Below are positions 5,087 to 45,534 of a stretch of DNA of 47,005 nucleotides, piece by piece (positions within the stretch are counted from its first letter, which is position 1; each line of letters opens with the position of its first letter). The notes beneath the pieces were generated by a model, which saw nothing but the letters and a program-made list of their open reading frames with translations, did no database searches and had not been told where the DNA came from. This stretch comes from Thermoleophilaceae bacterium (GTDB lineage Bacteria; Actinomycetota; Thermoleophilia; Solirubrobacterales; Thermoleophilaceae). The translations under genes were made by a program, and so were the position numbers. The DNA lies in NCBI GenBank assembly GCA_030448005.1, contig JAUJNT010000008.1, positions 1-47,005 on the forward strand. Direction: 5' to 3'.

Positions 5087-5949
5087 GCTACGCGGCACTG
5101 CTCGGGCTGCTCGCGGGCGCGCTCGCCGCCTGGGGGCTGGCCGAGCTCGTGATCGCCGGCGGGGTGGCCGCGCGAGAGCGAGGCAGGGGCCTGGCCCTCG
5201 CGGTGAGCGGCCTGGCGGAGGTGGTGGTGCGGCTGGGAAGCGAGGGCCGGGCACCCGGGACGATCGAGCGCCGGCGCCTGCTGATTGCGGGTGCCGTGGG
5301 CGCCTTCGTGGCAGGGGCCGTCCTCGCCGGCCCCTTTCCCGGGGCGGCGCTCGCCGCGGCCGGGCCCTGGGGAGTCGCCCGTGTGCTGGCCGCCCGGCGT
5401 GAGCACTACCGACGCGCTGTCGACCGCGGCGCCGCGGCCATCGCCGTCGCGATGGCCGACGCGCTCGGGGCGGGGCACTCCCTGCGCGGTGCGCTGCTCG
5501 AGGCGGCAACCGGCGTGCACGGCGCCGGGGGACACGAGCTACGGCGGGTGGCGGCCGAGCTGTCGGCGGGGGCCCGCACCGACGATGCCTTCGAGGAGAT
5601 GCGCGCCCGTGTCCGGTCGAGTCGTCTCGACACGATCGTGGCGGCCTGCCTCGTGCAGCGTCGTGCCGGCGGAGACCTGGCCCGGCTGCTGCGGGAGTGC
5701 GCCGGGGCATTCGGGGACCAGGACCGCCTGGAGGACGAGGTGCGTAGCGCGACAGCCCAGGCGCGCTTCACCGGGCTGGTCGTGGTGCTGCTTCCCCTCG
5801 GAGGCGCGCTGCTAGCGGAGCTGGCCGCCCCCGGCTTCGTGACCGGCCTATGGAGCTCCTTTCTCACGGCATGGCTCGTGGGGCTCGCGCTCGCGCTGCA
5901 GGTGGTGGCGGGCGTCGTGATCCGGCGCCTCGGGCGGGTCCGCTGGTGA
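5083..5949 (+). CDS. tadB: TadB-type inner-membrane platform protein (T2SS F domain)
   Basis: The GTG start at 5083 overlaps the tadA stop (GTGA), indicating translational coupling. The protein (288 aa) has an N-terminal membrane segment (LLGLLAGALAAWGLAELVIAGG), a second hydrophobic pair near 65-100, a cytoplasmic T2SSF domain (AVDRGAAAIAVAMADALGAGHSLRGAL, LARLLRECAGAF) and C-terminal membrane helices (LVVVLLPLGGALLAELAAPGFV, AWLVGLALALQVVAGVV). This is the usual TadB layout. With TadC it forms the platform that couples TadA ATP hydrolysis to pilin movement. Confidence 0.88.
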   Translation: MSYAALLGLLAGALAAWGLAELVIAGGVAARERGRGLALAVSGLAEVVVRLGSEGRAPGTIERRRLLIAGAVGAFVAGAVLAGPFPGAALAAAGPWGVARVLAARREHYRRAVDRGAAAIAVAMADALGAGHSLRGALLEAATGVHGAGGHELRRVAAELSAGARTDDAFEEMRARVRSSRLDTIVAACLVQRRAGGDLARLLRECAGAFGDQDRLEDEVRSATAQARFTGLVVVLLPLGGALLAELAAPGFVTGLWSSFLTAWLVGLALALQVVAGVVIRRLGRVRW

Positions 5950-6812
5950 TCGCCGGCGGCCTTTCCTTCGCCGCCGCCGCGTGCGCGGTGGTGGGCGTGC
6001 TGACGCTGCTCGGCGACTATGCGCGGATCGGGCGCCGCCGGCGGGGAGCCGGCCGCGGGGCGCCCGGCCCGCGGTTGCTCCGCGGACTGGCGACGGTCGG
6101 CCGGCGAGCCGCGGGTGGGCGCGCGCCGCGTGAGCTCGAGGATCGGATCGCCGCGGCGGGCCGTCCCGGCGGCCTCGGCCCTCGTGAGGTGATGGCGGCC
6201 AAGATATCTGCCGCGACTGCCGGGGGCATAGGCGGTGCGATGCTCTCGGTGGCGCTGCCGGGGCGCCTCGGGATCGCGCTCATCACGCTGGCGCCGGCTG
6301 CCGGGTTCCTCGCCCCCGACCTGTGGCTGGGCCGGCGGGCGGCCCACCGCGCACGGGCGGTGCGCCGTGAGCTCCCTACCCTCCTCGACCTGCTGCGCGT
6401 GACCGTCGATGCGGGCGCTTCTCTCACCGCCGCCATGTCGGAGGTGGGCGACCGTGCGCGCGGCCCGTTGGCCCAGGAGTGGCGCGTGGTCGGCCGCGAG
6501 GCCGCTCTCGGGGTCCCGCTGTCCGAGGCGCTCGAGGCGATGGGCCGCCGGCTGCCCCAGCCCGAGGTCAGGACACTCGTCGGCGCGCTCGACAGGGCAC
6601 GGCGTCACGGCGCCCCACTGGGCTCGACGCTCGCCGCCCAGGCGCGCGACTCGCGGCTGGCCGTGCGCCGCGCCGTGCAGGAGGAGGCGGCAAAGGCCGG
6701 GCCCAAGATCCAGTTGGTGGTTGCCCTGCTGCTCGTCCCGTCGGTGCTGCTGATGGTGGCCGCGGGGCTGATGGTCGCGCTGCTCGATTCCGGCGGGCTG
6801 CCGGGGGTCTGA
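5946..6812 (+). CDS. tadC: TadC-type inner-membrane platform protein (T2SS F domain)
   Basis: Start GTG 5946 overlaps the tadB stop by four bases; a longer in-frame ATG at 5850 would lie inside tadB and is rejected. The 288-residue protein resembles TadB: an N-terminal membrane helix (FAAAACAVVGVLTLLG), hydrophobic segments near 80-125, a T2SSF domain (LPTLLDLLRVTVDAGASLTAAMSEV, GVPLSEALEAMGRRL) and a C-terminal helix pair (LVVALLLVPSVLLMVAAGLMVALL). No prepilin, prepilin peptidase or TadZ-like gene follows; the next gene is mraZ. The pilin genes, if any, are outside the window. Confidence 0.87.
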   Translation: MIAGGLSFAAAACAVVGVLTLLGDYARIGRRRRGAGRGAPGPRLLRGLATVGRRAAGGRAPRELEDRIAAAGRPGGLGPREVMAAKISAATAGGIGGAMLSVALPGRLGIALITLAPAAGFLAPDLWLGRRAAHRARAVRRELPTLLDLLRVTVDAGASLTAAMSEVGDRARGPLAQEWRVVGREAALGVPLSEALEAMGRRLPQPEVRTLVGALDRARRHGAPLGSTLAAQARDSRLAVRRAVQEEAAKAGPKIQLVVALLLVPSVLLMVAAGLMVALLDSGGLPGV

Positions 6813-36819: not shown

Positions 36820-38166
36820 ATGAGCCGCTACACCTCCGCAACCGACGCCGACACGCGGGCGATGCTCGACGCCATCGGCGTGGGCTCGCTAAACGACCTA
36901 TTCGCCGAGATCCCGGACGGTGTGCGCCTGAAGCGCCCGCTCGACCTGCCCGACGGCCGCCCCGAGCAGGAGGTCTTCGAGCACCTCTCGGAGCTCGCGG
37001 CCCGCAACCGGCACGCCGACGAGGAGGTCACGTTCCTCGGGGCCGGGATGTATGACCACTACGTGCCGGCGATCGTCGACTCGATCACCCTGCGTTCGGA
37101 GTTCCTCACGCCCTACACGCCCTATCAGCCGGAGATCTCACAGGGCGGCCTGCAGGTGATGTTCGAGTTCCAGACGGCGATCTCCGAGCTGACGGGGCTC
37201 CCGGTGTCGAACGCCTCGGTGTACGAGGGCCCCTCCGCGGTGGCGGCGGCGGGCTATCTGGCAAGGAACCAGACCGGCCGCGGCAAGCTCGTGGTCTCCC
37301 GCGGGATGCACCCCCACTCCCGTGAGACGCTTGCCACCCACGCCGTGGGGTACGGGATGGGCACCGCGGAGGCGGGGCTGACCCCCGAGGGGGCGACGGA
37401 CTTGGACACGCTCGCCTCCCTGGTCGACGAGGACACCGCGGCGGTCTTCGTACAGCAGCCCAACTTCCTCGGCACCGTGGAGGAGCTCGGCGCCCTCGGC
37501 GAGGCCGCCAAGCGCACCGGCGCCCTCTTCGTGGTGGCCGCCGACCCGCTCGCGCTCGGGATCCTCAAGCCCCCCGGGGAGTTCGGCGCCGACATCTGCG
37601 TCGGAGAGGGTCAGACGCTCGGAAACCGGCTCGACTTCGGCGGGCCGTCCTTCGGTTTCTTCGCCGCGGACGAGCGCTTCATCCGGAAGATGCCCGGCCG
37701 CATCGCGGGCCAGACGCGCGACATGGATGGCAAACGCGGCTTCGTGCTCACGCTCCAGACCCGCGAGCAGCACATCCGGCGCGAGAAGGCCACCCATAAC
37801 ATCTGCACCTCGCAGGCGCTCAACGCGCTCGCCGGGGTCATCTACCTCTCCTGGCTTGGCAAGCGTGGCCTCGTGGAGCTTGGCCAGCTGATGGCAAAGC
37901 GCACCCACTACGCACGCGCAGTCCTCGGACTCGATGCGATCAACCCCGGACCCGTTGTGCGGGAGTTCGCGGTGCGGGTGCCCGACCTGGACGGCCTTCT
38001 CACCCGCGCGCGTGCCGAGGGCATCAACCCCGGATACCCGCTGCGCGACACCTACCCCGAGTACGGCGACGGGCTGCTCGTGGCGATCACCGAAAGGCGC
38101 ACCCGCGCCGACATCGATCGGCTTGCCGCCCTGACCGCGCCCTTGCGCGAGGAGGTGGCCGCCTGA
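36820..38166 (+). CDS. gcvPA: Glycine dehydrogenase (decarboxylating) subunit 1
   Basis: This is the N-terminal half of split P protein, which decarboxylates glycine using PLP. Family marks are YTSATDADTRAMLDAIG, PDGVRLKRPLDLP, FLGAGMYDHYVPAIVDS, RSEFLTPYTPYQPEISQGGLQVMFEFQT, LPVSNASVYEGPSA and RTREQHIRREKATHNICTSQAL-type residues (LQTREQHIRREKATHNIC). 448 aa is the normal length for the two-subunit type. ATG 36820 follows gcvH by 10 bases and shares one base with gcvPB. Confidence 0.94.
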   Translation: MSRYTSATDADTRAMLDAIGVGSLNDLFAEIPDGVRLKRPLDLPDGRPEQEVFEHLSELAARNRHADEEVTFLGAGMYDHYVPAIVDSITLRSEFLTPYTPYQPEISQGGLQVMFEFQTAISELTGLPVSNASVYEGPSAVAAAGYLARNQTGRGKLVVSRGMHPHSRETLATHAVGYGMGTAEAGLTPEGATDLDTLASLVDEDTAAVFVQQPNFLGTVEELGALGEAAKRTGALFVVAADPLALGILKPPGEFGADICVGEGQTLGNRLDFGGPSFGFFAADERFIRKMPGRIAGQTRDMDGKRGFVLTLQTREQHIRREKATHNICTSQALNALAGVIYLSWLGKRGLVELGQLMAKRTHYARAVLGLDAINPGPVVREFAVRVPDLDGLLTRARAEGINPGYPLRDTYPEYGDGLLVAITERRTRADIDRLAALTAPLREEVAA

Positions 38167-39791
38167 TGGCCGCGCTCGACCCCCGCGCGGGCGAGGAGAC
38201 CCTCACGATCTACGAGCGCTCGGTGGCGGGCCGGCGCGCATTCACGGCGCCCGCGCTAGACGTGCCGGACGTGCCGATGGAGGAGATCCTTCCCGCGTCC
38301 GCCCTGCGGACCCGGCCGGCGGAGCTGCCCGAGGTCTCAGAGCCCGAGATCGTGCGCCATTTCAACGGCCTGTCCAAGAAGAACTTCGACCTCGACACCG
38401 GCTTCTACCCGCTCGGGTCCTGCACGATGAAGTACAACCCCAAGCTCCACGAGCGCGTAGCCGCCCTGCCCGGGCACGCCCGGCTTCACCCGCTCCAGGA
38501 CCCGGAGTACGCGCAGGGGGCACTCGAGCTGATGTGGAACCTTCAGGAGGCGCTCGCCGAGATCGCCGGCCTGCCGCACGTGTCCCTGCAGCCGAGCGCC
38601 GGCTCACACGGGGAGCTTGCCGGCCTGCTGCTCACGCGCGCCTACCACGAGGGCCGGGGCGAGCAGCGGCACAAGGTGCTCACACCCGACACCGCACACG
38701 GCACGAACCCCGCCACCGTGACCATGGCGGGATACGAGGTCGTCAAGGTGGGCACCGACGAGCACGGCGGCGTTGACATCGCGGACCTGCGCGAGAAGGC
38801 AACCGACGACATCGCCTGCCTCATGCTCACAAACCCCAACACGCTCGGCCTCTTTGACCGCAACATCGAGGAGATCGCGGCGATCGTGCACGGCGCCGGG
38901 GCCACGCTCTACTACGACGGGGCCAACCTGAACGCCGTCATGGGCATCTCCCGTCCCGGCGACATGGGCTTCGACATCGTCCACTACAACCTGCACAAGA
39001 CCTTCACCCAGCCCCACGGCGGCGGTGGCCCGGGAGCCGGGCCGATCGCGGTGTCCGACCGCATCGAGCCCTACCTGCCGCGTCCGCAGGTGGTGCGCGT
39101 CGCGCGCGAGGGCGAGGGCGACGCGCACGCGGGCAACGGCCGCGCCGGCGAGCGGCCCCGCTTCGGGCTCGAGCACGACCGGCCGAGGTCGATCGGCAGG
39201 CTGCGGGGCTTTCAGGGCAACTTCGGGGTCTTCGTGCGCTCGTATGCCTACATCTGCTCGCTCGGCGGTGACGGCCTCAGAGAGACCTCGGAGACCGCGG
39301 TCCTGAACGCCAACTACCTGCGCGCACGGCTCGCCGAGCCGGGCGTGGCCGAGTACCTGCCGATCGCCTTCGATCGTCTCTGCATGCACGAGTTCGTGCT
39401 CTCGGGCAGGGGCGCGCGCGACAAGCTCGGCATAAGGACGCTCGACATCGCAAAGCGCATGCTCGACCACGGCGTGCACCCGCCGACCGTCTACTTCCCC
39501 CTGCTCGTGGAGGAGGCGCTCATGATCGAGCCCACCGAGACCGAGCCCAGGGAGCGCCTCGACCACTTCGCCGGCGTCGTGCGCTCGATCCTCGAGGAGG
39601 CCGGCGAGGATCCGGAGATCGCGCGCAACGCCCCGTACACCACCCCGGTGCGCCGCCTGGACGAGGCGGGCGCGGCCAAGCGGCCGGTGGTGCGCCAGCC
39701 CTCCGCCGACGGAGGCGGGGGCGCCGAGCAGAACCCGGGTGACCCTCGGCGTGCCGCCGAGAACCCGGCGGGCGCCACCGGCGCCATCTGA
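38166..39791 (+). CDS. gcvPB: Glycine dehydrogenase (decarboxylating) subunit 2
   Basis: This is the PLP-binding half of split P protein. Visible: EPEIVRHFNGLSKKNFDLD, FYPLGSCTMKYNPKLHE, LQPSAGSHGELAGLL, DTAHGTNPATVTMAGYEVV, and the PLP lysine K278 in DIVHYNLHKTFTQPHGGGG. DRPRSIGRLRGFQGNFGVFVRSYAY follows. At 541 aa it is longer than usual (~480-500). It has an Arg/Gly-rich loop (VAREGEGDAHAGNGRAGERP) before DRPRSIGR and a disordered C-terminal tail of ~30 residues. Confidence 0.94.
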   Translation: MAALDPRAGEETLTIYERSVAGRRAFTAPALDVPDVPMEEILPASALRTRPAELPEVSEPEIVRHFNGLSKKNFDLDTGFYPLGSCTMKYNPKLHERVAALPGHARLHPLQDPEYAQGALELMWNLQEALAEIAGLPHVSLQPSAGSHGELAGLLLTRAYHEGRGEQRHKVLTPDTAHGTNPATVTMAGYEVVKVGTDEHGGVDIADLREKATDDIACLMLTNPNTLGLFDRNIEEIAAIVHGAGATLYYDGANLNAVMGISRPGDMGFDIVHYNLHKTFTQPHGGGGPGAGPIAVSDRIEPYLPRPQVVRVAREGEGDAHAGNGRAGERPRFGLEHDRPRSIGRLRGFQGNFGVFVRSYAYICSLGGDGLRETSETAVLNANYLRARLAEPGVAEYLPIAFDRLCMHEFVLSGRGARDKLGIRTLDIAKRMLDHGVHPPTVYFPLLVEEALMIEPTETEPRERLDHFAGVVRSILEEAGEDPEIARNAPYTTPVRRLDEAGAAKRPVVRQPSADGGGGAEQNPGDPRRAAENPAGATGAI

Positions 39792-39821
39792 GACCTGCCG
39801 GCGCCCATAGACTGCGCCGCC

Positions 39822-40811
39822 GTGCGCATCTTCAGCGGCATCCAGCCCACCGGCCGCAAGCACCTCGGCAACCACATCGGAGCGGTCCGGGGCTATCTGG
39901 AGGGTCAGGATCGCGGCGATCCGGCGATCCTCTGCGTGGTCGACCTGCACGCGATCACGGTGCCCTACGAGCCCGCCCGGCTTCGCTCCCTCGTGTACGA
40001 CACCCTCGCCATGCTGATCGCATCCGGCCTCGATCCCGACCGCTCGATCCTCTTTCGCCAGAGCGACGTCCACGAGCACACCGAGCTCTCCTGGCTCCTC
40101 TCGTCGGTGACCGCTCACGGGGACCTCAACCGGATGACCCAGTTCAAGGAGAAGTCGGCAGCGCAGCGCGAGCTGGTGTCAGCCGGCCTCTTCCTCTACC
40201 CGGTGCTGCAGGCCGCCGACGTGCTGGCCTACCGCGCGCACGAGGTGCCGGTGGGCGATGACCAGCGCCAGCACGTGGAGCTCATGCGCGACATCGCCGA
40301 GCGCTTCAACACGGCCTACGGGGAGGTCCTCGTGGTGCCCGAGCACCGAATTCCCTCCGTCGGCGCGCGCATCATGGACCTGCAGCAGCCGGGGCGCAAG
40401 ATGTCGACCACCGGCAGCGAGGAGCGCGGGCTGATCTTCGTGGACGACGAGGAGAAGGCGATCGTCAAGAAGGTCAAGAGCGCGATCACGGATTCCGGGG
40501 GGGAGGTGCGCCGCGGCCCGGACAAGCCGGGCATCACGAACCTGATCGACATCCTCGCCGTCATCCGCGGCGTCTCGCCGGAGGCGGTCGAGCGGGAGTT
40601 CGAGGGGCAGGGCTACGGATCCTTCAAGGAGGCGGTGGCCGAGGCCGTTGTCGACGTCCTGCGCCCGGTGCGCGAGCGCTACCTCGAGCTGCGTCCCGAC
40701 GAGGGTGCGCTCGAGGCCGTTCTCGGCGAGGGTGCGGACAGGGCCCGCTCGCTGGCCGCGGAGACGCTTGCCGACGTGCGCCGCGCCATGGGCGTCGGGC
40801 CGCCCGCGTAG
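39822..40811 (+). CDS. trpS: Tryptophanyl-tRNA synthetase
   Basis: A class I synthetase charging tRNA-Trp. The N-terminus MRIFSGIQPTGRKHLGN contains the HIGH-like HLGN (14-17). VLQAADVLAYRAHEVPVGDDQRQHVELMRDIAERFN binds Trp and ATP. The KMSKS counterpart is KMSTT (193-197). Length 329 aa is typical of bacterial TrpRS. GTG 39822 lies 30 bases after gcvPB; it may share the operon. Confidence 0.95.
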   Translation: MRIFSGIQPTGRKHLGNHIGAVRGYLEGQDRGDPAILCVVDLHAITVPYEPARLRSLVYDTLAMLIASGLDPDRSILFRQSDVHEHTELSWLLSSVTAHGDLNRMTQFKEKSAAQRELVSAGLFLYPVLQAADVLAYRAHEVPVGDDQRQHVELMRDIAERFNTAYGEVLVVPEHRIPSVGARIMDLQQPGRKMSTTGSEERGLIFVDDEEKAIVKKVKSAITDSGGEVRRGPDKPGITNLIDILAVIRGVSPEAVEREFEGQGYGSFKEAVAEAVVDVLRPVRERYLELRPDEGALEAVLGEGADRARSLAAETLADVRRAMGVGPPA

Positions 40812-40821
40812 GCTTCCCGCG

Positions 40822-41610
40822 ATGTCCGTGCCCGCCCCCCTCGAGCTCGAGATGGACCTCGAGGTCTTCCAGGGGCCCTTCGACCTGCTCCTCACCCTCG
40901 TTCTGCGCGAGGAGGTCGATCTGCTCGAGGTGCAGCTCGCAGACGTGGTGCTCGCCTACGTAGACCACCTGGAGCGCACGAGCGAGCTCGACCTCGAGGC
41001 CGCCACCGAGTTCCTCGTGCTGATCGCGGCGCTGCTCGAGCTCAAGTCGCGGCTCATGCTGCCCGGAGAGCAGGTGGAGGGCGAGGCGCTCGAGCCCGGC
41101 GAGGCCGCGGACGAGTTGCTTGCGCGCATGCTCGAGTACAGCCGCTACAAGTCCGCCGCGGCGTATCTGCGCATCCGGCTCGAGGCAGAGAGCGGGTTTC
41201 GCTACCGCGCGGCGCCGCTGCCCCCGCCGCTGCGGCGGGTCTCGGTGGACCTGGCCGAGCCGGTGTATGACCCGGCGCTGCTGGGGGAGGCGATCGGGTC
41301 GCTGCTGCGCACCCCGCCGCGGCTCGAGCTCGCCCACATAGCGCAACCGCAGGTGTCGATCGAGCAGAGGCTCTCCCACATGCGCTCGTTGCTCGGCCGG
41401 GGCAGCTTCGTCTTCGACGAGGCGGTGAAGGGTGCCGACCGGCTGACCGAGGCGGTCACCCTCTTCGCGTTGCTCGAGCTCTACAAGGCGGGCGAGGCGG
41501 AGTGGGACCAGCCCGAGGCCTTCGGCGAGATCACGGTACGGGCCGGTGGCAGCTCCGCGCGGGAGACGGTGCGGGCCAGCGATCAATCTGCGCGGGAGGT
41601 GGACGGTTGA
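40822..41610 (+). CDS. scpA: Segregation and condensation protein A (kleisin)
   Basis: ScpA bridges SMC heads in the bacterial condensin that organises and segregates chromosomes. Start ATG 40822 (MSVPAPLELEMDLEVFQGPFDLLLTLVLREEVDLLEV) lies ten bases after trpS; the longer frame is a shadow of trpS. The kleisin N-domain is followed by TEFLVLIAALLELKSRLMLPG and a winged-helix C-domain (LTEAVTLFALLELYKAGEAEWDQPEAFGEITV). About 262 aa is typical. The stop overlaps the scpB start. Confidence 0.93.
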   Translation: MSVPAPLELEMDLEVFQGPFDLLLTLVLREEVDLLEVQLADVVLAYVDHLERTSELDLEAATEFLVLIAALLELKSRLMLPGEQVEGEALEPGEAADELLARMLEYSRYKSAAAYLRIRLEAESGFRYRAAPLPPPLRRVSVDLAEPVYDPALLGEAIGSLLRTPPRLELAHIAQPQVSIEQRLSHMRSLLGRGSFVFDEAVKGADRLTEAVTLFALLELYKAGEAEWDQPEAFGEITVRAGGSSARETVRASDQSAREVDG

Positions 41611-42179
41611 ACGAGCTCGCGCGGATCGTCGAGGCGCTGCTCTTCCTGTCGGCCGAGCCCGTCTCCCTGGACCGGCTCGCGGATGCGTGCGAGTCCTCGG
41701 AAGGAGAGGTGATCGAGTCGCTCGCCCGTCTGCGCGAGCACTACGCGGAGGGGTACCGCGGGGTGGTGCTGAGGGAGGTGGCCGGAGGGTTCACCCTGGC
41801 CACGGACCCGGTGGCCGAGCACGCGGCGCGCCGGCTGCTGTCAAGGCCTCGCACCCCGCCGCTCACCCCCGCCCAGGCCGAGTGCCTCGCGATCGTGGCC
41901 TACCTCCAGCCCGTCTCGCGCCCGGAAGTCGCGCGCGTGCGCGGGGTATCCTCGGAGTCTGCCGTGGGCACCCTGCTCGAGAGCGGGCTGATCGAGGAAT
42001 CGGGTCGGTCTCGATTCGGGGCCGTGCTCTACCGCACGACCGAGCTGTTCCAGAAGCTCTTCGGGCTCGAGGCGCTCGACGCGCTGCCCGACGTGTCCGG
42101 CTTCGACCCCTCCCCGGACGAGGAGGGCCGGCTCCGGGAGCGGCTGCTGAAGGCCGGCGAGGCGCGCGCGCAGGCCTGA
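41607..42179 (+). CDS. scpB: Segregation and condensation protein B
   Basis: ScpB dimers stabilise the SMC-ScpA complex. The TTG start (41607) overlaps the scpA stop by four bases and has GGGAGGT seven bases upstream. Two winged-helix domains are visible: LARIVEALLFLSAEPVSLDRLADACESSEGEVIESLARLREHY, and PLTPAQAECLAIVAYLQPVSRPEVARVRGVSSESAVGTLLESGLIEE. The YRTTELFQKLFGLEALDALP segment near the end is typical. About 190 aa. Confidence 0.93.
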   Translation: MNELARIVEALLFLSAEPVSLDRLADACESSEGEVIESLARLREHYAEGYRGVVLREVAGGFTLATDPVAEHAARRLLSRPRTPPLTPAQAECLAIVAYLQPVSRPEVARVRGVSSESAVGTLLESGLIEESGRSRFGAVLYRTTELFQKLFGLEALDALPDVSGFDPSPDEEGRLRERLLKAGEARAQA

Positions 42180-42618
42180 GTTAGCGGGAGCCGGGCGGCC
42201 CCTTGCACTTCTCTCCGCCGCATTGAGCGCGTCCGCGATAGACGCCTTCTACGGATCCGTGCAACACAGCGCATTGCACCGCAGCCTTGTCTCTATGCGG
42301 GTGGGCCGAGAATCGAACGGCGCGCTACACAAACGAGTTGTCGAAGTCTTCGAGGTGCCGTTTGGCGTGCCAGACTGGGGATCGACGGAGACGATCAGCT
42401 CTTGGGCGGCTCTACCGAGGAGATCGTCGACGTGACCTCAACGCAATGTGGCTGCGCCGGTGACACGAGTTCTCCCTGCCATGGACCCGGCGCCGATGCC
42501 CGGAAAGGCCGCCAGCTGGTACTGGCGAGCTGGACCGGCGGGCCGACTACGGTGGCCAGGTGGACAGGGATCGACCCGCTTTCGGCCGGCCGGCGTCGTC
42601 GGCCCCTGGGGACTTCTG
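42180..42618. other. Intergenic stretch between scpB and the protease gene
   Basis: 439 bases without a convincing gene. A short frame at 42223-42435 has no recognisable family. In-frame starts for the protease at 42448 and 42481 exist but give a non-coding-looking Pro/Trp/Arg-rich extension. GGGTGGGCCGAGAATCGAAC at 42299-42318 resembles, in reverse, a tRNA T-arm and acceptor end but does not fold. This is where the conserved backbone of the window ends. Confidence 0.5.
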
Positions 42619-43449
42619 ATGGGCTCCAAGGGACCCGGCCTGCGATCGGCCCTCGCCGGTGCGCTGGGCTCGGCTATAGCGGTGTTAGCGGTCCTGTTCG
42701 CGACGGGCAACCTCTATGAGGAGGATCGGGAGAGCACTGGCATCAGCGCCTCGGCGAAGCCGGCCCGAACCGCCGCCGCCCTACCTGACGTATACGAGCG
42801 CTCGCGCCGGAGCGTGGTCCTGATCGACCACCGCCCACCGGGCGTCCGGCCGAGAAGGGGCCCGCCACGGCGCAACGACGGAATCGCGACGGGCTCTGGG
42901 CTCGTGATCGACGCGAAGGGACATATCGTCACCAACCACCACATCGTCGCCGGCCGGGGCAAGACCACCGTCCGGTTGGACGCGGATGCCGGCCCTGTGG
43001 ATGCCACGGTCGTCGGACGCGATCCGGGCACCGACCTCGCGCTGCTGAAGATCGCACCTGCTGATGACGCCAGGCGGCTGAACCCGCTCCGGCTCGGTGA
43101 TTCCGATGCCGTTCGCGTCGGTGATGCGGCGATCGTGATCGGCAACCCGTTCGGGCTCGAGCGCAGCCTGACCGCGGGCGTCGTCTCGGCCACCGACCGC
43201 AGGATCGACGCCCCGAACGGCTCCAAGATCGCCGATGCCGTCCAGACGGATGCGCCGATCAACCCGGGCAACTCCGGCGGCCCGCTTCTCGACGCGGCGG
43301 GACGAGTCATAGGGGTCATCTCACAGGCTCGCGGCGACGGAATCGGATTCGCCGTGCCGGTCGACACGGTGAAGCGAGTCGTTTCGAAGCTGCGGCGCAA
43401 CGGACGGACTCCGGGTCGGCCGCCCCGAGGACCTCGAGCAGCCGACTGA
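42619..43449 (+). CDS. Membrane-anchored trypsin-like (HtrA/DegP-type) serine protease without PDZ
   Basis: Start ATG 42619 (MGSKGPGLRSALAG) gives an N-terminal membrane anchor (GALGSAIAVLAVLFATGNLY) with the protease outside the cytoplasm. The trypsin fold carries a complete triad: His in VTNHHIVAG (H108), Asp in GTDLALLKI (D139), Ser in NPGNSGGPL (S219). IGNPFGLERSLTAGVVSATDR is the usual S1C segment. The protein ends soon after the protease domain (276 aa), so the PDZ domain usual in HtrA is missing. A ~40-residue basic/Pro-rich linker (RPPGVRPRRGPPRR) lies before the fold. The target is unknown; the acidic repeat protein 630 bases downstream is one candidate. Confidence 0.85.
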   Translation: MGSKGPGLRSALAGALGSAIAVLAVLFATGNLYEEDRESTGISASAKPARTAAALPDVYERSRRSVVLIDHRPPGVRPRRGPPRRNDGIATGSGLVIDAKGHIVTNHHIVAGRGKTTVRLDADAGPVDATVVGRDPGTDLALLKIAPADDARRLNPLRLGDSDAVRVGDAAIVIGNPFGLERSLTAGVVSATDRRIDAPNGSKIADAVQTDAPINPGNSGGPLLDAAGRVIGVISQARGDGIGFAVPVDTVKRVVSKLRRNGRTPGRPPRGPRAAD

Positions 43450-43938: not shown

Positions 43939-44081
43939 CGGCCACGACCGCCAAGAGTACCGCCCCGAAGAACGACGCCAGATAGAGCCGCTCGTGCTGG
44001 TCGTCCTCGCTAGTCTCGCCCTGAGGTTGCCCGTGGCCGGAGCAGAGCCGACGGTAGGATCGTCCAACGAGAGGAGTCCAG

Positions 44082-44327
44082 ATGAACGAACCCCACGGAG
44101 CTTCGGACGCGGACGTTCGAGGCGAGGAAACCCTCACGGACGACGAGATACAGACGCGACCTTTCGGTTCGGCGGCGAGTCCCTCGCTCGACGACGACAC
44201 TGATACCGGAGATGTCGCGGACAGCGGCGACGACAGCGGCGACGACTCGGACACCGGAGACGACAGCGGGGACGACTCGGACACCGGAGACGACTCGGGA
44301 GACGACAGCGGCGACTCGGACTCGTAG
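44082..44327 (+). CDS. Small acidic repeat protein (possible oxygenase substrate / RiPP-like precursor)
   Basis: An ATG at 44082 is preceded by GAGGAG with a five-base spacer, the best ribosome-binding site in this part of the window, so translation is likely. The 81-residue product has a leader-like first half (MNEPHGASDADVRGEETLTD, then EIQTRPFGSAASPSL). The second half is built only from Asp, Ser, Gly and Thr, with a repeating 10-residue unit DTGDDSGDDS. The DNA there is a 30-base direct repeat. There is no Cys, no Lys and no membrane segment. Third-codon positions in this frame are almost all G or C, supporting coding. It directly precedes and overlaps the frame of a JmjC oxygenase. Function unknown; calcium-binding or a simple disordered protein are alternatives. 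Confidence 0.72.
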   Translation: MNEPHGASDADVRGEETLTDDEIQTRPFGSAASPSLDDDTDTGDVADSGDDSGDDSDTGDDSGDDSDTGDDSGDDSGDSDS

Positions 44328-45534
44328 GGAGCCCGCTAAGCGGCCGGGCGGCACTCCTGGCGAGCGCCGCGGTGCGGTCGAGCTGACGCTCGGTCCGATA
44401 CCGCTGGAGGCGTTTCGCGACCAGCACTGGGAACGTCAGCCGCTGCTTGTCGGGCGCGCGGAGAGCGGGCGCTTCGACGGCGTCCTCTCGACGGCTGACG
44501 CCGAGCGGCTCGTCTGCACCACGGGGATCCGGGCGCCGGCGTTCCGCCTTGTGAGAGACGGCCGCCAGATCACGCTTCGCGATTACACCGAGAGCATCCC
44601 TTGGCGGCCGGGTAGCTTCAGCGACCGGGCGATCGTCAGTCGCGTTGCCGAGGAGTTCGAGCAGGGGGCGACGATCGTCCTGCAGGGGCTCAACCTTCAT
44701 TGGCATCCGGCGGCGCTCTACTGCAGGGAGCTCGAGGCCCGCCTCGGGTGTCCAGTCCAGGCGAACGCGTACTACACGCCGGCGGCGGCTCAGGGGTTCG
44801 CTGTGCACCACGACACCCACGACGTGTTCGTGCTCCAGGTTTCGGGGCGCAAGCGATGGCGCATCTACGAGCCGCTGCTCGAGCTGCCGCTGAAGACGCA
44901 GCGCTGGTCACCGGACCTCGGGGACGTCGGTGACCCCGTTGAAGACTTTGTGCTCGAGGCGGGGGACACGCTCTACTTGCCGCGGGGTTGGCCCCACGAG
45001 GCGGCGACCTCTGACGAGGACTCGCTTCACATCACCGTCGGCCTACACCCACAGACCCGACTCGACGCGCTCCGAGCGGCGCTCGAGAGCTGCGCTGACG
45101 ACGTCGAATTCCGCCGCTCCGTGACGGGCGACGGCGTCCTGTCCGACGAACTCCTCGAACGCCTGGCCGCGCGCCTTGACCCAGATCAAGTGCTCCGACG
45201 GGCGCGGCGACGCTTCGTGTCAACTCGGCGTCCCGTGCTCGATGGCCAGCTCGCGCAGGTGCGGGCGCTCGCGGGCCTCACCGTGCGCCACGAGCTCCTG
45301 CCGCGGCCCACGGTCGTTGCCGACCTGGAGGTCCGGGAGGCCGGCGTCGCCCTCATCTTCGATCAGAAGGAGGTCGTCTTTCCCATCAAGGCACGCGCTG
45401 CCATCGAAGCGCTCTACGCCGCGCCGGAGCCCATCACCGCGGAGGAGCTGCCCGGCCCGCTTGACGAAAGTGGGCGCCTCGTGCTCGTGCGGCGGCTCGT
45501 CCGCGAGGGATATCTGCGAATCCCCGGCGTCTAG
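44212..45534 (+). CDS. JmjC/cupin_4 ribosomal-oxygenase-like hydroxylase
   Basis: This protein resembles the ROX family (YcfD, MINA53, NO66), Fe(II)/2-oxoglutarate enzymes that hydroxylate protein side chains. The fold begins at about residue 58 (LGPIPLEAFRDQHWERQPLLV). Iron ligands are complete: H199 and D201 in VHHDTHDVFVLQVSGRKRW and H262 in LYLPRGWPHEA. A dimer helix region and a C-terminal winged helix (VVFPIKARAAIEALYAAPEPITAEELPG, LVRRLVREGYLRI) match ROX architecture. The only canonical in-frame start is ATG 44212, inside the acidic repeat gene in another frame. It would add ~55 Thr/Arg-rich residues, so a later non-canonical start (CTG 44383) or an indel is possible. Confidence 0.85.
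   Translation: MSRTAATTAATTRTPETTAGTTRTPETTRETTAATRTRREPAKRPGGTPGERRGAVELTLGPIPLEAFRDQHWERQPLLVGRAESGRFDGVLSTADAERLVCTTGIRAPAFRLVRDGRQITLRDYTESIPWRPGSFSDRAIVSRVAEEFEQGATIVLQGLNLHWHPAALYCRELEARLGCPVQANAYYTPAAAQGFAVHHDTHDVFVLQVSGRKRWRIYEPLLELPLKTQRWSPDLGDVGDPVEDFVLEAGDTLYLPRGWPHEAATSDEDSLHITVGLHPQTRLDALRAALESCADDVEFRRSVTGDGVLSDELLERLAARLDPDQVLRRARRRFVSTRRPVLDGQLAQVRALAGLTVRHELLPRPTVVADLEVREAGVALIFDQKEVVFPIKARAAIEALYAAPEPITAEELPGPLDESGRLVLVRRLVREGYLRIPGV

Follow-up and report, generated by a model that had tools for sequence, protein, structure and literature searches.

Is the small, aspartate-rich protein encoded just ahead of a JmjC oxygenase gene in a Thermoleophilaceae bacterium the dedicated substrate of that enzyme? 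A first-pass annotation of the window (the whole stretch of 47,005 nucleotides that was analyzed) had proposed a RiPP-like set made up of a substrate, a modifier, and a processing peptidase. We conclude from the comparative analysis described here that the oxygenase is very likely a modifying enzyme dedicated to the peptide, with the peptide as its substrate, and that a leader-guided, RiPP-like pair of this kind is probably the best explanation of the locus.

An Asp-rich peptide next to a JmjC oxygenase

The 81-residue Asp/Ser/Gly protein that had been described as well translated is indeed encoded by an open reading frame (ORF) with a good Shine–Dalgarno sequence, and a G-rich site comparable to AGGAG also precedes the start of the peptide in the relatives that we checked. 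With an Asp content of 32%, it is the sole ORF of at least 25% Asp among the 260 ORFs of 40–160 amino acids in the window. Its features are as follows.

44072–44076, plus strand: Shine–Dalgarno sequence AGGAG of the peptide gene, 5 nucleotides ahead of the ATG
44082–44327, plus strand: Asp-rich small protein of 81 amino acids, the presumed precursor and substrate
44133–44156, plus strand: leader motif LTDDEIQT, residues 18–25
44190–44324, plus strand: Asp/Ser/Thr/Gly repeat tail, residues 37–81, the presumed modified region

The ORF that ends at 45534 matches the JmjC_2 family (PF08007, E = 5.5e-31), and the following features were recognized in it.

44377–45534, plus strand: conserved JmjC oxygenase core of 385 amino acids with the NO66/ROX fold (AF2 pLDDT 93)
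44806–44814, plus strand: HxD iron ligands H199 and D201
44995–44997, plus strand: third iron ligand, H262
45322–45504, plus strand: C-terminal segment of RRE-like order (strands at 316–319, 323–328, and 331–336 and a helix at 337–348 in the model, then two more helices)

All three of the iron ligands that the annotation had named exist, and H199, D201, and H262 (in the numbering of the 440-residue ORF, corresponding to H144, D146, and H207 of the core) are invariant in 26 aligned relatives. The full-length fold matches that of human NO66 (Z 31.6, rmsd 4.4 over 364 residues, 28% identity), the next structural matches being MINA53, YxbC of B. subtilis, and YcfD (Z about 19 for the last of these). 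The enzyme thus combines the PF08007 match, the HxD...H triad, and the fold of a JmjC 2-oxoglutarate oxygenase. The C-terminal domain of the AF2 model shows a β3–α3 order like that described for RRE-like domains (PMC12710340); no PqqD or RRE match to the enzyme was found in Pfam.

Recurrence of the pair and proposed recognition of the leader

A survey of JmjC genes for small Asp-rich ORFs upstream bore out the pairing that the annotation had postulated. We considered a locus testable if its JmjC protein scored at least 290 bits and at least 330 nucleotides of upstream sequence were available, and after removal of duplicates an Asp-rich ORF ended directly upstream of the JmjC gene in all 89 such loci, mostly from Actinomycetota. 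No Asp-rich ORF was present upstream of five more distant JmjC homologues (L078, L124, and L126–L128, scoring 152–230 bits), four of which (L124, L126, L127, and L128, at 188–230 bits) came from the search of the phylum. Three loci have aberrant upstream peptides that may represent further precursor types: L120 (MTDPTRSDDPTATDTDRVFDQEQQG...), L045 from an acidobacterium (Acidobacteriota, ...GSWVEIDSDYADVDDGNDSTD), and L047 from Dokdonia, whose peptide has a lipoprotein-like start and an acidic, Cys-containing tail. The enzyme was found in 46 loci in GTDB contigs, in 28 of 399 genomes of the class, and in 58 of 396 sampled genomes of the Actinomycetota (about 15%). Among near relatives, only 3 of 61 genomes contain it, and it is therefore an accessory gene.

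The peptides themselves divide, as had been supposed from the single sequence, into a leader-like part and a tail of repeats, of which the former proves to be conserved and the latter to vary. Most contain the motif L-x-D-[DE]-[DE]-I-x-T, and the consensus shared across the peptides is L-x-[DE]-[DEN]-[DEQ]-[IMV]; a strict pattern of the leader matches 65 of the 89 peptides as compared to 4 of 2,875 background ORFs, and a looser pattern matches 75 of the 89. The motif is followed by a tail of D, G, S, T, and A repeats whose type varies by lineage (DTGDDSGDDS, DADADDTDA, GGDADQGDSNETQVDPAGSDPAG, DGDATDGTDGDA, and GEGPADGGSNPGGHDGGADGTA are examples), and Asp alone is shared by every type. The tail changes rapidly (260 nonsynonymous versus 29 synonymous codons) and keeps its composition. 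The family therefore displays two features by which RiPP systems are recognized, namely a conserved leader joined to a variable core and, at every testable locus, a short, genetically encoded precursor adjoining a tailoring enzyme.

A clue to how the leader might be recognized comes from locus L070, in which peptide and oxygenase lie in the same frame, separated by a single TAG, so that the two could be modeled by AF2 as one joint chain with the stop read as Ser. Residues 1–10 of this chain (MTLGDEEIKT), which are homologous to the leader motif of the window, had a mean pLDDT of 96, and a strand was predicted at residues 9–12. The Asp tail (residues 15–52) was disordered, with a pLDDT below 50, and the enzyme was mostly above 90. 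A short peptide beyond a disordered linker normally scores lower unless it is docked, and we infer from the model that the leader of L070 is docked on the enzyme. With a single known exception, the leaders of RRE systems bind in the form of a strand (PMC12710340). We propose that the segment T-L-T-D-D-E-I-x-T would be the recognition sequence of the small protein and that it would dock as a short strand on the oxygenase, the docking surface probably being the C-terminal winged-helix or RRE-like domain.

Taken together, the recurrence of the pair, the combination of leader and variable tail, and the L070 model make the assignment of substrate and modifier well founded, and the comparative evidence argues strongly for the pairing.

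How the oxygenase is translated

Where translation of the oxygenase begins is less straightforward. Two features of the window bear on this question.

44212–45534, plus strand: longest JmjC ORF, from the sole in-frame ATG, overlapping the peptide gene by 116 nucleotides; its true start is uncertain
44325–44328, plus strand: peptide stop codon TAG and the next G, a candidate +1 shift site at which the JmjC frame reads AGG after the T

The ATG at 44212 lies inside the peptide gene and directly adjoins a GGAG sequence, too close to it for a normal ribosome-binding site, and the JmjC frame has no ATG, GTG, or TTG between the peptide stop and the conserved core. The annotation had described a complete ROX-type enzyme directly after the peptide; the PF08007 domain and the NO66 fold are indeed complete, but an ordinary start after the peptide stop is missing.

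The same peculiarity is seen in relatives. The JmjC frame is +1 with respect to the peptide in 22 of 26 Thermoleophilia loci, across 10 different distances from stop to core, all of which equal 1 modulo 3. Twelve of these 22 loci, the window included, have no ATG, GTG, or TTG from 60 nucleotides ahead of the stop up to the core, and in seven of the 12 (L009, L011, L013, L014, L019, L065, and L068, of which L065 is cut by the end of a contig) the open frame lacks such a codon throughout; the peptides, meanwhile, have Shine–Dalgarno sites. Downstream of the stop, the GC content of the three codon positions (0.78/0.63/0.89) matches that of the core (0.80/0.46/0.92), and substitutions there favor third positions (59/70/126, p = 2.5e-7), from which it follows that the JmjC frame is translated from the stop onward. 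In L019 and L014, an AGC codon that overlaps the TAG of the peptide, beginning at its second nucleotide, supplies the Ser that opens the conserved SALxRC (SALARC) start of the enzyme. Finally, the peptide gene ends in TAG in 23 of 26 cases, the JmjC gene at the same loci in 11 of 24 (Fisher p = 0.002), and the Suc_Fer gene in 4 of 19, part of which bias may simply reflect the AGC Ser codon of the overlapping frame. We rejected assembly error as an explanation, given that 22 separate loci show the +1 frame. The anomaly is real.

The pattern in Thermoleophilia suggests, as its simplest explanation, a +1 shift at the peptide stop, with re-initiation at an unusual codon about equally likely. According to the first account, which would add to the leader-guided pair and not contradict it, the enzyme of Thermoleophilia is made only by a programmed +1 slip at the TAG or TGA stop of the peptide, a proposal that we consider plausible, if a little short of an even chance. 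It draws on the constant frame, the lack of starts, the signs of coding from the stop onward, the Ser codon, and the bias toward TAG. Shifts of +1 at a stop codon are known for prfB and antizyme, often with a C after the stop, and C is likewise enriched after the stop in the +1 loci (15 of 22). Against this account, no slippery P-site codon is conserved at the peptide stops of the +1 loci, where the codons vary, no RNA structure surrounding the stop proved to be conserved, and the downstream fold is weak (mean z −0.92 vs −0.15), so that a downstream frame that is coding, startless, and fixed in its relation to the peptide is seen in the Thermoleophilia clade but a conserved slippery site with a stimulator is not. 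The window itself is ambiguous in that it carries the in-frame ATG at 44212. In other clades, moreover, the enzyme has ordinary starts in all three frames, often in GTGA or TTGA overlaps, and fusion is not required there; and a test of frame class over all loci gave a modest p value (Fisher, 0.014) from related loci that are not independent.

The second account, coupled re-initiation, would yield a separate enzyme whose start is either a non-AUG codon close to the peptide stop or an in-frame codon within the peptide gene; we regard it, too, as nearly an even proposition. It is favored by GTGA and TTGA overlaps (L085, L094, L104, L111, and L119–L121), by an overlapping ATG or GTG in L005–L007, L025, and L081, and by the ATG at 44212, which provides an ordinary alternative in the window. 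In L035, L040, and L096 the JmjC frame, which has no canonical start, overlaps the stop as CTGA, raising the possibility of a CTG start by coupling. It is opposed by six loci (L012, L014, L015, L016, L017, and L019) whose JmjC frame has no ATG, GTG, TTG, CTG, ATT, ATC, or ATA from 24 nucleotides ahead of the stop up to the core, and it leaves the constancy of the +1 frame across 10 gap lengths unexplained. We also note that four Acidimicrobiia-like loci (L024, L028, L032, and L039) have a JmjC frame in +1, a TGA stop, no canonical start nearby, and a CTG close to the stop, on one side of it or the other.

If the shift takes place, it would generate much free peptide and little peptide–oxygenase fusion, thereby setting the ratio of substrate to enzyme and attaching the leader in cis. 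No locus that we examined encodes peptide and enzyme as an uninterrupted, single-frame fusion, an absence consistent with a requirement for free peptide in excess. The full version of this proposal, in which a programmed +1 frameshift at the precursor stop gives rise to a minority precursor–oxygenase fusion that β-hydroxylates the free Asp-repeat peptide, itself present in large excess, is a tentative one that we judge rather doubtful as a whole.

Neighboring genes, chemistry, and known systems

We return to the leader-guided pair and to its neighbors. A Suc_Fer-like protein (PF06999) is encoded directly downstream of the JmjC gene in 68 of the 86 loci with enough sequence (for example, at 5127–6029 on the minus strand in L010). 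Its gene is co-directional at 50 of these loci, as it is in most Actinomycetota, and convergent at 18, in Thermoleophilia. The five members of the clade in which the tree places the window (L005–L008 and the window) lack this gene, and the genome of the window has no match to PF06999 at all. The Suc_Fer-like protein may be an electron or iron partner, and in most other lineages this [2Fe-2S] protein would complete the cassette; the organism of the window lacks it.

The membrane-anchored serine protease that had been noted nearby was also found.

42448–43449: HtrA-like serine protease (Trypsin_2, E = 1.8e-34) with an apparent N-terminal membrane segment

It has no homologue at the other loci examined, and we therefore rejected the idea that it is the processing peptidase and do not count it as part of the system. 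Of the RiPP-like set originally envisaged, then, substrate and modifier stand and the peptidase falls away. No conserved peptidase or exporter adjoins the pair within flanks of 1.5–4 kb, and such genes may lie elsewhere. Further upstream, the region 36820–42179 appears from its sequence to contain housekeeping genes (subunits of glycine dehydrogenase, a tryptophanyl-tRNA synthetase-like gene, and scpA- and scpB-like genes).

How might the enzyme act on its partner? The disordered, Asp-rich tail would enter the Fe(II)/2-oxoglutarate site and be oxidized at repeated positions. Because Asp is the residue shared by all tail types, the most likely modification would be β-hydroxylation of Asp, a chemistry extrapolated from relatives whose closest solved members hydroxylate His or Arg of ribosomal proteins. 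That the product is a metal-binding polyanion is a guess. Alternatively, the tail may undergo macrocyclization instead of hydroxylation; 2-oxoglutarate-dependent macrocyclization reportedly occurs in RiPPs.

Several known systems resemble the pair in part. FIH and the bacterial and eukaryotic Asp/Asn β-hydroxylases are 2-oxoglutarate oxygenases that act on the β carbon of Asn or Asp in proteins; the present enzyme is likewise a 2-oxoglutarate oxygenase but is not a member of these groups at the level of sequence, and its Asp target is putative. In borosins such as OphMA, the precursor is fused in one frame to its own modifying enzyme. A real +1 shift would likewise place substrate and enzyme in one chain, but here the fusion would arise by recoding, and as compared to prfB and antizyme, which also shift by +1 at a stop, the present loci have no conserved slippery codon or stimulatory element that we could find.

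With NO66 (RIOX1), MINA53 (RIOX2), and YcfD the enzyme shares the JmjC fold, the HxD...H triad, an architecture of dimerization and winged-helix domains, and, in the case of NO66, 28% identity. Those enzymes act on ribosomal substrates (His of Rpl8 and Rpl27a and Arg81 of L16), whereas the present enzyme invariably comes with an acidic peptide of its own. That it is nonetheless an ordinary ribosomal oxygenase of the NO66/YcfD kind, with the peptide an unrelated or regulatory upstream ORF, is very unlikely, the similarity of fold and full-length architecture being outweighed by the universal pairing with a conserved leader, by a patchy occurrence that argues against a housekeeping ribosomal oxygenase, and by the placement of the leader in the L070 model.

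The closest precedent is the report that RRE-like domains are fused to PF08007 JmjC domains in eukaryotes and that bacterial homologues occur in RiPP-like contexts (Bregman et al. 2025, PMC12710340). The present pair resembles these fusions and RRE-dependent RiPPs generally in having a small precursor with a conserved leader beside a PF08007 enzyme, a C-terminal β3–α3 order, and a leader predicted as a strand, and it differs in having no conserved protease or exporter in the flanks covered. The annotation had held a ROX-type enzyme with a dedicated small partner to be new. The link of this class to RiPPs had been anticipated in that report and is thus not wholly new, but we found in it no mention of an Asp-repeat precursor, of a Suc_Fer partner, of the present leader motif, or of the oddity of reading frame. 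Nor did the literature that we searched for the combination of peptide and JmjC enzyme or for frameshifted RiPP precursors contain such a system, and NCBIfam has no model for either protein.

In sum, the analysis provides a concrete candidate for the dedicated substrate of a bacterial relative of human NO66, a JmjC oxygenase that about 15% of the sampled Actinomycetota genomes encode. If the tail is multiply β-hydroxylated, the product would be a ribosomally made, metal-binding polyanion, and if the frameshift is real, it would represent an added way of setting the ratio of substrate to enzyme and an uncommon role for bacterial recoding.
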